From a virus, in the IMG/VR virus record IMGVR_UViG_3300024507_000221, positions 1 through 22,818 of that record: a stretch of 22,818 bases of DNA; one strand, given 5' to 3'. The notes under the pieces are model-generated. The model was not told the DNA's origin. It did not search any database and saw nothing but the letters and a program-made list of their open reading frames with translations. Of this stretch, positions 2,942 through 8,213 are shown piece after piece (positions within the stretch are counted from its first letter, which is position 1; each line of letters begins with the position of its first letter). A program made the translations under genes and the position numbers.

Positions 2942-3706
2942 TCAAGCAGGTGGATAAAGTGGAGTATTACCAGTAGTAATTCCAGACATTGCAACAAGAA
3001 CTTCGGTCTTGACTCTCATTTCACCTTCAACTCCCATGTAAGTTGTAACCCCAACCCATCCCTCATGAGTTAAAGCGTATGAAGTTCCTTGTGCTACTTC
3101 AATTCCAGCATCAGCAACACCATAAACTGATCTAGCATATCCATCAGCAAGTCTTGCGAATCTTAATATATCACCTGTACTAATTCCAGCACTAATTGTT
3201 GAAGCAAGAGAAATTGTCGTTGCTCCAATGCTATTAATAACAACATTATTACCATTGTTTACTAGAGCATCACCAACAACTACTCCAGTTGCCCCATTTA
3301 AAACACTTGACGAAATAACATTTGTTCCAATTCCAGCAGATGCTGTTGCAGTTCCAGTATATGTAATTGGTGAAAAACTTCTAGCGGCAATATTTGCTGC
3401 ACTGAATGTACTATCGAGAACAGTATACTTAGGTAATTCGCTAATATCAAATTGAACTCCAGAAATAGTAGCACCGCTTAAATTGGAGGTAGAAGCAATT
3501 GAAAGTTGTGTTGCACTTGTAATTCCCACAATTACAGCATCACCATAATAAGTACCCGTTCTAGATCCAAAACGAATAACATCACCAACTGCTGCAGCAC
3601 CTGCATTGCCAAAAGTAGTACCACTACCGGTCACAGTCAAAGTTTGATAGTCTAAAGATACTGTACCACCAGAACCTTTAGCATCATTATTTCCCCAGAG
3701 TGCCAT
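2942..3706 (-). CDS. Beta-rich virion structural protein with an internal duplication
   Basis: This 254-aa protein is rich in Gly, Thr, Ser, Ala and Val and almost free of Cys, as is typical of phage surface or fibre proteins. It holds two similar beta-rich units, at about 22-83 and 125-183. They share GDVIRF against GDALVN and GDILRF, VIVGITSATQLSIAST against VVINSIGATTISLAST, and a following Ser/Gly/Ile-rich turn. The C-terminal part (EGWVGVTTYMGVEGEMRVKTEVLVAMSGITTG) is likely a separate beta domain. The ATG at 3706 lies 35 nt downstream of a perfect TATAAATA late promoter. The virion assignment is inferred from composition and from the late promoter; I cannot say whether it sits on head, tail or fibre. 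Confidence 0.75.
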   Translation of the reverse strand: MALWGNNDAKGSGGTVSLDYQTLTVTGSGTTFGNAGAAAVGDVIRFGSRTGTYYGDAVIVGITSATQLSIASTSNLSGATISGVQFDISELPKYTVLDSTFSAANIAARSFSPITYTGTATASAGIGTNVISSSVLNGATGVVVGDALVNNGNNVVINSIGATTISLASTISAGISTGDILRFARLADGYARSVYGVADAGIEVAQGTSYALTHEGWVGVTTYMGVEGEMRVKTEVLVAMSGITTGNTPLYPPA

Positions 3707-4135: not shown

Positions 4136-5836
4136 TTACATTAAAGATCCTTTACCATGTTTGGAAATCATTTGTTGTCTCACAAAATCTAACGCTCTTT
4201 GGGAGGTCTCTTTATGTCTTTTCATTCTTGCTTCTCTTTCTGCTGGAGTTTCTGGTTTTGATGCAGATTGTTTTGCAGGAGATGTTGAAGAACGAGCACC
4301 CATTCCACCACGCTCAAGTTGTCTATCCTTCATTCGATCAGAATCTTCTTCAGAAACAGTTTCTGGTTTTCTTTGCTTCATTAATGCTTGTTTTCTAAGA
4401 GTAGCAATCCTAGTGTCAAGAGAAGCTCTTTGTTTTTGAACTTGAAGTTCTTGAGGGGTTAATGCAGTAGAATCTGCGACTGCTTCTTCAACTTTTTTAG
4501 GAATTCTTTCATGTTTTGTTTTTGCAAAATCACGAATTTTTTTCTCACTCATATCATCAACAATTTTAAGAACAGCATCACTTACTTCAGATCTTGGAGT
4601 CTGACCTCTTTTTACCGAAAGAGCAAGTCCAAATATTTTTTGCTGCTGCTCACTAGCAGCTTTTTCATTGATTACTTCCTCAGATACTGCTTTTTTAATT
4701 TTTTTAGCAGCAGTAACAGTTCCAGTAACACCAGATTTTACGCCTTTACCAAATTCAGATGCTCCTTTTGCAGCAACTCTTAGTGCTTTTCCTGCAGTTT
4801 GAGTTGCTGCACGATGCCTTTCCATTCCAGATTGGTATGCTTTTACTGCGCCAAAAATTCCTTTTGCAATTGCATCTCTTACTGGTTTCTTAGATGGTTG
4901 CTTTTCAACAGCTTTTTTAATAGCAACTGATTTTTTTCTGACAGTTGACGATGCAGGACTTGACTTAAATCTTCGAGTAGTTCCATACTTTTGAACTGCT
5001 GCCTTTGTTGCTTGAGACGGTGCAGTTCCTTTTGGAAGTTTTTGAGGACTTTTCTTTTTACCAAGTAAAGTTCTTGCTTCGTTTAATGTATATTCTTCCG
5101 AAATTTCAAAAACAAAATTTACAAATTCCTCAAGCCCAAGTTCTTCAATAAGAATATCTAAACCTTCTTCATTTAAACCCTGTTCATAAAAATATTCAGT
5201 CGCAATATCAACAGTTTCAGTAAGAACTTCTTCATCAAGTTCTACCATTTCAATCAATGTTCCACCAAGATTTTCAACTGATTCACCTATTTTAATACCA
5301 GACCCAATTGCACTTGTTTTTATTTTATTTTTTACTTGCTTTTCAACAATTTTTTGATTTTCCTTATTATCAACTTTATCGGTAATTTCAACCAAATCTT
5401 CTCTCCAATTGGAGAATCCTTCTTTTGCAACTTTTTTGCTTCCACCCATTTCATCCTTACCCAACCTACCCGCAATTACATCACCTCTAGTTACTTTGTC
5501 ATATGGAGGATAATTATTTGCAAGATTGCCATCATTTGTTTTCTTCGCTTCTTCCATTTTTTGCTTCGCTTTATCTCTCAAAGCCTTCTTCATGGATTCT
5601 TTTTCATTACCATCCTTGTCAAAATCCAAGTAATCTGGTTTTGCTGCTTCCTTGATACCTTTCTTTTCTCTCATTGCCTTTGCTTTTGCAAGTGTTCTTT
5701 CTCTGGCAGCATCTTGCTCACTTTTAGGAATAGCAGTCACTGCACCAAGTCTTTCTGCAGGTTTACCAGGAACTGCAGATTCAGAAACTTGCTCCAGATA
5801 TACTCTGGAAATATCATTCAGAGGATTGGTTGACAT
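4136..5836 (-). CDS. Putative prohead/internal head protein with LxE cleavage sites and a DUF3008-like domain
   Basis: This 566-aa protein has a mosaic layout. The N-terminus (NPLNDISRVYLEQV) is a type I recall from other cyanophage head-region proteins. A charged, Lys/Glu-rich part runs to about 180. Residues 186-253 are strongly acidic (IEMVELDEEVLTETVD, ILIEELGLEEFVNFVFE) and end in LNE253|AR, which fits the T4 gp21 prohead-protease rule (Leu/Ile)-x-Glu before a small residue. A Lys/Ala/Arg-rich basic part follows to about 385. A second possible site is INE391. Residues 394-450 (QQQKIFGLALSVKRGQ, DDMSEKKIRDFAKTKHERIP) resemble the small bacterial family DUF3008. A late-type box at 5869-5876 lies 33 nt upstream. 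The acidic-site-basic plan is shared with the 298-aa protein. Function as a core or internal protein is inference. Confidence 0.7.
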   Translation of the reverse strand: MSTNPLNDISRVYLEQVSESAVPGKPAERLGAVTAIPKSEQDAARERTLAKAKAMREKKGIKEAAKPDYLDFDKDGNEKESMKKALRDKAKQKMEEAKKTNDGNLANNYPPYDKVTRGDVIAGRLGKDEMGGSKKVAKEGFSNWREDLVEITDKVDNKENQKIVEKQVKNKIKTSAIGSGIKIGESVENLGGTLIEMVELDEEVLTETVDIATEYFYEQGLNEEGLDILIEELGLEEFVNFVFEISEEYTLNEARTLLGKKKSPQKLPKGTAPSQATKAAVQKYGTTRRFKSSPASSTVRKKSVAIKKAVEKQPSKKPVRDAIAKGIFGAVKAYQSGMERHRAATQTAGKALRVAAKGASEFGKGVKSGVTGTVTAAKKIKKAVSEEVINEKAASEQQQKIFGLALSVKRGQTPRSEVSDAVLKIVDDMSEKKIRDFAKTKHERIPKKVEEAVADSTALTPQELQVQKQRASLDTRIATLRKQALMKQRKPETVSEEDSDRMKDRQLERGGMGARSSTSPAKQSASKPETPAEREARMKRHKETSQRALDFVRQQMISKHGKGSLM

Positions 5837-5848
5837 CTTAATAAGTAC

Positions 5849-7126
5849 TTACTTTTTTGCCTTATACTTATTTATGAAATTGGTTCCATATGACTTTCCT
5901 CCAAATTGGAGATATTGTTTATTAGTTCCAACCGATCCTGGAGTCATTTTTGCATAGTGTTTAAATGCACCAAGAGTTCCAACAAGAGTATTTGGATGTA
6001 CTTTATCTCTCATTGGACTATTCATTTCTACTTCAGAATATTCCATCAAATCTTTGATCCAAGATTTAAACATATATCCTTCTTCCGTCACACATATCAA
6101 ATGATTAGTTCCTCTACGCATTACTTCACCAATTAATCCTGTATTTAAATTTTGAATTTTATCGCCTATTTTAAATATTTTTCCCTTTACATAATTTTCA
6201 CGAAGATTTTTCATATCATACTTAGGGGCAATATCCCATAGAGAATAACTTTCCTTTTTAACCTTAGATTTCTTAACTTTCATTCCCTGTCGAACAGCAT
6301 CAAAAAGTGTTTGTGTTTCTCCATCATCTAATGTTTTTGGTGTTCCTCTACGGAAAGAATTAAAATCATTATCTAATACTGCTTTTCTCATTTTAGATGC
6401 AGACATTCCCTCGATACCTTCTGCATCAGCATCTCTTACTCCAGCAGATACAACTCGAATTAAATCAAAATTATATAGTTCTCCATTATATTTTTGGGCA
6501 AGGTTTTCAAATTCTGCCTGACGATCAGAACCCACAACAATATTCACACTAGTATATCCTTCTTCTTGTGCTGCAACAAGAACATCAAAGATTGTTCTCA
6601 TATATGGGTCATTAATAATGTTCTCCTCAAAATCTGGGAACATTTTTTTCATGTAAGAAATTTTGATATCAGGATCTAGTGGATTTTTCTTTGGATCTTG
6701 AGTTCTTGAAGGATAAATCTTAATATCTCCACCAACAGAAATCCTCTTTGCCGACTTAAGAAGTTTATCATGACCAATTGTTGGTGGGTTAAAGCGACCA
6801 AAAACAATAGTAAGTGGTGATAGTTCTTCTTCAGGTTGCTCTTCTGGTGCTTGTCCTGATACCGCTTGAGGTTGTGGTGCAGGTGCTTGTGTTGCTTGAG
6901 TTGCTTGAGGTAATTGAGTTTTTGCTTGTTTATTTACTGGTTGCTTTTCTCCCTTTGTCGGTCTACCATCAGTGAATTTAAGTTTCCCTTCTTCTGTTCT
7001 TGCAACTGTTTTGCCAGATCTATCTACCCATCCACCATGACCATCTCCACGCAATCCAAGTTTTTTCGCCTGCATAGATGCTTGCGATTGCGTTGCTTCT
7101 GATAAAAATTGGAAGAAACTCTTCAT
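5849..7126 (-). CDS. Nucleotidyltransferase (HxGH superfamily) with an N-terminal capsid-targeting peptide
   Basis: This 425-aa protein opens with MKSFFQFLSE|A, very like the capsid-targeting peptide of T4 internal proteins (MKTYQEFIAE|A), which gp21 removes after Glu10. Residues 21-60 hold a GDGHGGWVDRSGK motif, then a Gln/Pro/Ala linker (70-100). Residues 104-282 form a cytidylyltransferase-like domain: GRFNPPTIGH (110-119, the HxGH ATP site), NIVVGSDRQ (195-203) and SASKMR (242-247, the ISSTxxR-like site). These features are known from NMN adenylyltransferase, pantetheine-phosphate adenylyltransferase and related enzymes. Residues 316-362 (FKIGDKIQNLNTGLIGEV onward) look like a KOW/SH3-like domain. 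The true substrate cannot be read from sequence; NMN is one candidate. The late-type box at 7169-7176 and flanking head-like proteins support a packaged enzyme. Confidence 0.8.
   Translation of the reverse strand: MKSFFQFLSEATQSQASMQAKKLGLRGDGHGGWVDRSGKTVARTEEGKLKFTDGRPTKGEKQPVNKQAKTQLPQATQATQAPAPQPQAVSGQAPEEQPEEELSPLTIVFGRFNPPTIGHDKLLKSAKRISVGGDIKIYPSRTQDPKKNPLDPDIKISYMKKMFPDFEENIINDPYMRTIFDVLVAAQEEGYTSVNIVVGSDRQAEFENLAQKYNGELYNFDLIRVVSAGVRDADAEGIEGMSASKMRKAVLDNDFNSFRRGTPKTLDDGETQTLFDAVRQGMKVKKSKVKKESYSLWDIAPKYDMKNLRENYVKGKIFKIGDKIQNLNTGLIGEVMRRGTNHLICVTEEGYMFKSWIKDLMEYSEVEMNSPMRDKVHPNTLVGTLGAFKHYAKMTPGSVGTNKQYLQFGGKSYGTNFINKYKAKK
5869..5876 (-). promoter_or_regulatory. Late-type promoter CATAAATA
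   Basis: One mismatch from TATAAATA, on the minus strand, inside the 3' end of the nucleotidyltransferase gene and 33 nt upstream of the 566-aa gene. The spacing equals that of the two perfect late boxes (29 and 35 nt), which supports it despite its place in coding sequence. Confidence 0.55.
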
Positions 7127-7168
7127 ATTGTTTATTTTTATACTTTTATTTATTTTTTTCTGCTTTTA

Positions 7169-7176
7169 TATTTATG
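7169..7176 (-). promoter_or_regulatory. Late-type promoter CATAAATA overlapping the tRNA 3' end
   Basis: The minus strand reads CCATAAATAT, one mismatch from TATAAATA, 43 nt upstream of the nucleotidyltransferase gene. The box uses the last two bases of the tRNA-Ala gene. A second AATAAATA at 7147-7154 lies only 21 nt from the start codon and seems too close, though it cannot be excluded. Confidence 0.5.
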
Positions 7177-7248
7177 GAGAATAGGAGACTCGAACTCCTG
7201 ACATCCTGCTTGCAAAGCAGGCGCTCTACCAGACTGAGCTAATTCCCC
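7175..7248 (-). tRNA. tRNA-Ala, anticodon UGC
   Basis: The 74-nt gene folds fully on the minus strand. The acceptor arm GGGGAAT pairs with ATTCTCC (one G-T). The D arm is GCTC/GAGC, and the anticodon arm is CCTGC/GCAGG around the loop TTTGCAA, giving anticodon TGC for GCA alanine codons. The T arm is AGGAG/CTCCT with loop TTCGAGT. The discriminator is A and CCA is not encoded. It lies between the terminator of the 298-aa gene and the nucleotidyltransferase gene. A sigma70-type promoter at 7259-7287 ends 11 nt before it. Confidence 0.97.
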
Positions 7249-7258
7249 AAGTTTAGAC

Positions 7259-7316: not shown

Positions 7317-8213
7317 TCAGATAGTTTCAGTAACCATAATTTTCAATGCTTCTTCTCTAGTGTTACCTTGCTCCATCAATTCGGCAAGAGTTGTATCAAA
7401 TACATCAACTTCTTCAGTTGCCATTCTTGAAGCAAGTTTTGAAGCACCAGAAGCAACTCCAGATGCAGCTGCTCCTACTGCTTTTTTAACACCTCTCTTT
7501 GTTCTTGCTGCAGTGTACTTAGCACTTTGCTTTGCTTTTCCAGCAACATCAGATGCTGCTTGTCCTGCTTTTCTTGCAGCACTATAAGCACCTACTTGCG
7601 CTTGAGCGATTTTCTTCTTAATTCTACCTTTAATATCAGCAGCAACTTTTGCTCTCAGTCCTCTTCTCTTTTCAGGATCCTTCGATCTTGCAGCCATTCC
7701 TGCAGCAGGGTGAAGACCTCTCTTTGTTGCATATGCAGCTGCTGGTCTATCAACAGCACGGAACTTTGCTTCTTTTCCAGCTTCCTTTGCTTTTGCAACT
7801 GCTGCTTTACCAGCAGACTTTGCTTTTCCAAGTGCAGACTTAACAGCACCTTTTACTTTAGCAATTTTTTCTGCTCTCTTTTCCTTTCTGACTACAGATG
7901 CGCCTGCCTTTCTTGCTTGACTTGCCGCTTTTTCTGAAGATTGTGCATACTGCTTTCTTGCCGCAGCACGAGCACTCATATCAACTCTTGCTTCCGAAAG
8001 AACTTCTTCAAAGATTTCTTCCACTTCATCAAAATCATATCCTTCTTCAAGCATTTCATCAATTGTTTCTTCTACAATTGTATCAATTTCTTCGTCAGTA
8101 AGATCTTCAATGCCAGCAAACTCATCTGACATTTCTTCCAACTCATCTCTAAGATCTTCATCATAAATTGCACTATATGCTTCACACAAACCTCTAAGTT
8201 CTTTAGAATCCAT
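7317..8213 (-). CDS. Putative DNA-condensing internal head protein with acidic propeptide
   Basis: This 298-aa protein has two opposite halves. Residues 1-74 are very acidic (DEDLRDELEEMSDEFAGIED, IVEETIDEMLEEGYDFDEVE, EIFEEV). They end in LSE74|AR, a match to the T4 gp21 prohead-protease rule. Residues 75-265 are rich in Lys, Arg and Ala with repeated AxKA, KAKSAGKAAVAKAKEAGKEA and AARKAGQAASDVAGKAKQ units, like histone H1-type tails. A short acidic C-terminus (TEEVDVFDTTLAELMEQG) closes it. An acidic propeptide that shields a basic DNA-binding part until cleavage in the prohead would explain the plan; this is inference. The gene has its own perfect late promoter 29 nt upstream and its own terminator, so it is a monocistronic late unit and probably abundant. 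Confidence 0.75.
   Translation of the reverse strand: MDSKELRGLCEAYSAIYDEDLRDELEEMSDEFAGIEDLTDEEIDTIVEETIDEMLEEGYDFDEVEEIFEEVLSEARVDMSARAAARKQYAQSSEKAASQARKAGASVVRKEKRAEKIAKVKGAVKSALGKAKSAGKAAVAKAKEAGKEAKFRAVDRPAAAYATKRGLHPAAGMAARSKDPEKRRGLRAKVAADIKGRIKKKIAQAQVGAYSAARKAGQAASDVAGKAKQSAKYTAARTKRGVKKAVGAAASGVASGASKLASRMATEEVDVFDTTLAELMEQGNTREEALKIMVTETI

Follow-up and report, generated by a model that had tools for sequence, protein, structure and literature searches.

The stretch of DNA analysed here (the window), a viral record of 22.8 kb, is a fragment of a T4-like cyanophage. Its minus strand carries T4-like cyanophage genes for DNA polymerase, UvsX, gp41, the clamp loader, CobS, and gp61; names were assigned from annotated relatives and profile matches. 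The window also contains an open reading frame (ORF) of 425 amino acids that matches phrog_395 (E 4e-101) and is the counterpart of PSSM2_194 from phage P-SSM2, annotated as T4-GC 190. Matches to this ORF are found in 562 phage records. T4-GC190 is a cyanophage core gene and is listed among the experimentally determined virion proteins (PMC3037559).

The features of the window that concern this protein are collected in Table 1. A first-pass annotation had placed an HxGH nucleotidyltransferase domain in the ORF, and both expected motifs, GRFNPPTIGH (of the (H/T)xGH type) and SASKMR, were found. In the table and below, a slash within a sequence marks a known or predicted cut.

Table 1. Features of the enzyme gene and its surroundings
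Feature	Position	Strand	Remark
Tagged nucleotidyltransferase, 425 aa, family T4-GC190 / phrog_395	5849..7126	(-)	
Putative capsid-targeting peptide MKSFFQFLSE, residues 1-10	7097..7126	(-)	
Predicted gp21-type cut, Glu10/Ala11	between codons at 7097 and 7096	(-)	
Accessory N-terminal module, residues 15-54 (QASMQAKKLGLRGDGHGGW...)	6965..7084	(-)	missing from some tagged relatives
Nucleotidyltransferase domain, residues 102-284	6275..6823	(-)	model pLDDT 94, pTM 0.88
GRFNPPTIGH, (H/T)xGH motif, residues 110-119	6770..6799	(-)	
SASKMR motif, residues 242-247	6386..6403	(-)	
C-terminal small module, residues 306-365	6032..6211	(-)	separate ORF in S-CAM1
ATAAATA late-promoter-like motif upstream of enzyme gene	7147..7153, second copy 7169-7175	(-)	
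tRNA-Ala (TGC)	7174-7249	minus	between 298-aa gene and enzyme gene
298-aa neighbour, related to S-SCSM1 ORF89 (virion protein)	7317..8213	(-)	late-promoter-like motif upstream
566-aa neighbour, counterpart of S-SCSM1 ORF92 (virion protein)	4136..5836	(-)	late-promoter-like motif upstream
254-aa protein, related to S-SCSM1 ORF95 (virion protein, named tail fiber)	2942..3706	(-)	late-promoter-like motif upstream
Small basic ORF containing GGFSGSAQAKGPTAGFDPVMGMTRRKK	2341-2595	minus	start codon uncertain

Late promoters of T4-like phages have the consensus NATAAATA. In the window this motif lies at most 50 nt upstream of the genes for the 298-, 425-, 566-, and 254-aa proteins, and upstream of 0/22 other genes examined. 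Because its number in the whole window shows no excess (11 versus 7.4 expected), the information it carries is in its placement. Among the distinct upstream regions of homologs, the motif lies no more than 70 nt from the start in 19/20, 81/123, 35/36, and 59/59 cases for the same four genes, respectively. For homologs of gp61, mazG, gp41, uvsX, and gp43 the count is 0/172. According to the S-SCSM1 annotation, the homologs or positional counterparts of the four proteins are all virion proteins. S-SCSM1 also has a tRNA-Ala in the corresponding island.

The 298-aa neighbour contains LCE/A at residue 11 and LSE/A at residue 74, the second with an acidic stretch before it and a basic one after it. 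Such a charge switch at LxE/A occurs in 5/6 non-redundant homologs of this protein, compared with 0.7 expected. The 566-aa neighbour has LNE/A at residue 253 and contains a DUF3008 domain, to which S-SCSM1 ORF93, a stand-alone virion protein of 69 aa, is similar in sequence. Its charge switch is weak (12/47 homologs versus 6.8 expected), and thus no weight is put on it.

The small basic ORF contains GGFSGSAQAKGPTAGFDPVMGMTRRKK, similar to the N-terminal arm that the mature major capsid protein has in the same species (GGSAAGGPTAGFDPVLISLIRR). In S-SCSM1 the counterpart of the ORF is ORF97, which carries a virion-protein annotation, and searching with gp23 recovers the ORF in sister contigs. 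The protein may dock to the partners of the capsid protein by mimicry.

The N-terminal peptide and its conservation

Positions 7126-7082 (minus strand) translate to MKSFFQFLSEATQSQ, residues 1-15 of the 425-aa ORF. The T4 record gives MKTYQEFIAE/A as the N-terminus of both IPII and IPIII. The enzyme shares four of the ten residues of this peptide (M1, K2, F7, and E10).

The positions that are conserved within the enzyme family can be read from 38 non-redundant relatives. Phe7 is present in all 38, Lys2 and Glu10 in 37 each, and Phe4 in 36; Met1 is near-invariant as well. Position 8 is restricted to L, I, F, or V, position 9 is variable, and position 11 is Ala in 32/38. Conservation of the tag is thus highest at positions 4, 7, 8, and 10. 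In mutants of T4 IPIII, residues 4 and 7 mainly govern targeting, and residues 8 and 10 govern processing (PMC9026906). With the T4 peptide read from its record and the conserved positions in agreement, the T4-like start described by the first-pass annotation is confirmed. The enzyme has an aromatic residue at position 4, Phe7, a hydrophobic residue at position 8, and Glu10, and a small residue follows the predicted cut.

The tag is retained in 158/165 homologs examined, in some of which the enzyme domain is only about 30-45% identical. The enzymes of S-SZBM1 and S-CREM2 have lost the accessory N-terminal module and kept the tag. In several contigs the catalytic strand starts a few residues after the tag, as in MKSFNAFLTE/AKDKGVVFTFGRFNPP. 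Untagged homologs are found in S-CAM1, HTVC008M, and jumbo phages. One natural variant (L338:7453) has Gln for Glu at position 10 (MKSFYSFFEQAED); this protein might be targeted without a cut at that position.

Reuse of the tag and the processing machinery

A targeting signal of the T4 type should be portable between unrelated proteins. Viral contigs were scanned with the back-translated pattern MK[ST]F..F[LI].E/A, in which position 11 is fixed as Ala and 14 bases are specified. At least 120 stretches carry the pattern, and the examined set comprises 81 matches at 80 loci. Among the matches listed, 81/81 of those examined lie at the start of an ORF. With Gln in place of Glu10, a control pattern matches 30 times across the whole collection, and 14 of these matches fall at the start of an ORF of at least 60 aa. 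The excess over the control is therefore at least fourfold, and the difference in placement (81/81 among the matches listed versus 14/30) excludes chance.

Among the matches listed, the enzyme family is the commonest (35 of the 81 examined), and the remaining tagged ORFs fall into about 28 clusters, many of which are short basic proteins or proteins of low complexity. The tag is thus found on unrelated cargos. Their domains include a GNAT acetyltransferase (PF13508, 1.2e-7), a DPBB domain (3e-12), and DUF6267 (1.5e-102); an ADP-ribosyltransferase-like cargo is weakly matched (PARP 4e-4, ART-PolyVal 6e-3, both below cut-off). Late-promoter motifs accompany 17/45 tagged genes outside the enzyme family, compared with 2.4 expected.

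An almost T4-identical tag of the type MKTFQEFIAE/A occurs on short proteins (L028:19403, L029:19246, L198:3736, and L220). In these the tag is followed by an ADP-ribosyltransferase-like YHGT segment with weak domain matches. In some phages DUF6267 proteins begin with the tag or with a similar sequence (L185:4695; L095 ORF16, Melnitz-3), which suggests that this family may also be a head protein.

The cut motif by itself is a poor guide. In the S-SCSM1 proteome, virion proteins are not enriched for a loose pattern of the cut site close to the N-terminus (5/48 versus 15/234, p 0.35), and a stricter pattern gives 3/48 versus 2/234 (p 0.04). Since the bare motif is uninformative, the full tag is required.

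Contigs that carry a 100% identical enzyme encode gp21, the T4-type prohead protease, and gp23. The gp23 of this species has SMLME/SPTN at the position expected for T4-type processing, and its relatives have LAE/A, LTE/A, or LME/A at the corresponding site; these gp23 sites are assigned from position and motif.

The same contigs contain a second tagged ORF, which starts MKSFQQFISE/SVNISGDFNG.... It belongs to a conserved protein of 105-109 aa in the structural-gene region (L363, S-SCSM1 ORF30, S-SZBM1_191, L230). This protein is likely a second internal protein of the window's own species.

That the first ten residues of the enzyme are a T4-type capsid-targeting sequence, as the first-pass annotation had proposed, is strongly supported. 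Support comes from conservation at the T4 positions, gp21 and a gp23 cut motif in the same species, the late-promoter motifs, the occurrence of the tag on unrelated proteins, and virion proteomics published for relatives.

Fold, substrate, and a proposed mechanism

Foldseek places the domain model closest to the solved structures of NaMN/NMN adenylyltransferases and PPAT, with which it shares about 12-20% identity. When PDB sequences were searched with a profile, the matches were at chance level apart from one weak NMNAT. Like NadM, NadD, NadR, and PPAT, the enzyme has a nucleotidyltransferase fold, the (H/T)xGH motif, and a C-terminal S...R motif. Unlike them, it has extra N- and C-terminal modules, and the family models stay below their cut-offs (13-15 bits for the window protein with the curated NMNAT models, whose cut-offs are 164 and 341). 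A NadV-type enzyme (PF04095) was found in 0/14 related phage records, some of which are fragments. The comparison with NMNAT and PPAT suggested by the first-pass annotation thus upholds the nucleotidyltransferase fold and fits both enzymes without choosing between them. Because the fold fits both, the models fall below cut-off, and NadV is absent from these records, the protein is named only an adenylyltransferase-type enzyme. The idea that NMN is the substrate is weakened by the structural ambiguity and by the missing NadV.

Two related proposals were considered for the enzyme. NAD+ salvage through NadV is lowered by the same 0/14 count. Identity with phage Namat was set aside because the core of that protein is reported to resemble Nampt, which belongs to another enzyme class (PMC12774641).

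A mechanism that we hold to be probable starts late in infection, when the enzyme would be made. The N-terminal peptide would draw it into the prohead core. A gp21-type protease would then cut after Glu10, leaving a roughly 46-kDa enzyme that starts at Ala11 inside the head. At the next infection the enzyme would most likely enter the cell with the DNA, where it would adenylylate a nucleotide-like substrate, with NMN as the leading candidate. Tag conservation, late-promoter motifs, the protease and capsid-protein motif, tag reuse, and the enzyme fold are observed here and support this mechanism, as does the published detection of relatives in virions. Cleavage after Glu10, injection, and the substrate are inferred.

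The closest parallel is provided by IPII and IPIII of T4. The ten-residue N-terminal peptide, its determinant positions, and the final Glu before a small residue are alike, as are the T4-type gp21 and gp23 in the enzyme's species and the late-promoter motif. Here, unlike in T4, the tag occurs in marine phages on many unrelated cargos, and the cargo is a 46-kDa enzyme instead of a small basic protein. T4 Alt is a packaged and ejected ADP-ribosyltransferase. The present protein would likewise be a head-carried enzyme acting at the start of infection, although of a different enzyme class. Several points count against the mechanism: some relatives are untagged, the virion detections discussed below may be carry-over, and the enzyme exceeds the T4 internal proteins, which measure about 8-20 kDa (PMC9026906), in size, although Alt too is packaged and ejected.

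It is quite possible, if still the lesser prospect, that the enzyme is packaged and delivered and acts on something other than NMN, such as phosphopantetheine or another acceptor, in which case it would not contribute directly to supplying NAD. The scores of PPAT structures come close to those of NaMN/NMN adenylyltransferases, every curated model falls below cut-off, and the absence of NadV from the phage records points the same way. On the other side, NMNAT models match more of the 47 homologs examined with NCBIfam (NadR type 35/47, TIGR00482 30/47) than PPAT does (17/47), all of these matches being sub-threshold.

Alternatively, the peptide may target the prohead core while the enzyme serves head assembly, remains with the capsid, or is active only in the cell that produces it, so that it is not injected. 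T4 head assembly is slowed without IPIII (PMC9026906), and injection itself is a proposed step. We regard this as unlikely. The family as a whole has kept its active-site motifs, which suits catalysis and not a purely structural role.

Virion detection and significance

Published mass spectrometry has found proteins of the T4-GC190 family in virions of S-SM1, S-SCSM1, S-SZBM1, and S-CREM2, and S-CBWM1 is cited as an additional case. The presence of the family in virions is therefore already published and is not new. Three of these proteins, S-SCSM1 ORF91, S-SZBM1_140, and S-CREM2 ORF154 (T4-GC190, NMNAT-like), belong to the same family as the window's enzyme, and all three start with the tag.

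Peptide counts are low in two of the phages (two for S-SZBM1, three for S-CREM2), and the authors of the S-SCSM1 and S-CREM2 studies themselves caution that detection may be carry-over. If an abundant late protein were simply carried over, the N-terminal peptide would serve something other than entry into the head. This is highly improbable, given that separate groups detected the enzyme in four phages, that the conserved positions coincide with the residues mapped in T4 for targeting and processing, and that many unrelated proteins carry the tag. A purely coincidental likeness to the T4 peptide, for which the low identity with IPIII and the commonness of the bare cut motif near start codons in a phage proteome might be cited, is refuted by the pattern of tag conservation in the homologs, along with the ORF-start placement described above.

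In the portions available, the S-SCSM1, S-SZBM1, and S-CREM2 publications describe neither a targeting peptide nor its cleavage. A literature search on capsid targeting in cyanophages, mostly outside subscription journals, gave only a T4 review, in which cyanophages appear solely in a reference title. Within the literature searched, the explanation of packaging by a tag provisionally appears to be new.

Cyanophages infect the ocean's most abundant photosynthetic cells. To our knowledge, their metabolic enzymes are usually assumed to be active only after expression. A readable tag for head entry would explain why this enzyme has been detected in virions repeatedly. It would also allow candidate injected proteins to be listed from genome or metagenome sequence. 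We think it reasonably likely that marine T4-like phages use the tag as a general address for head entry, and that dozens of unrelated families, several putative enzymes among them, carry it. If so, sequence alone would be enough to bring to light a set of pre-packaged, injected proteins for host takeover, most of it unknown so far.
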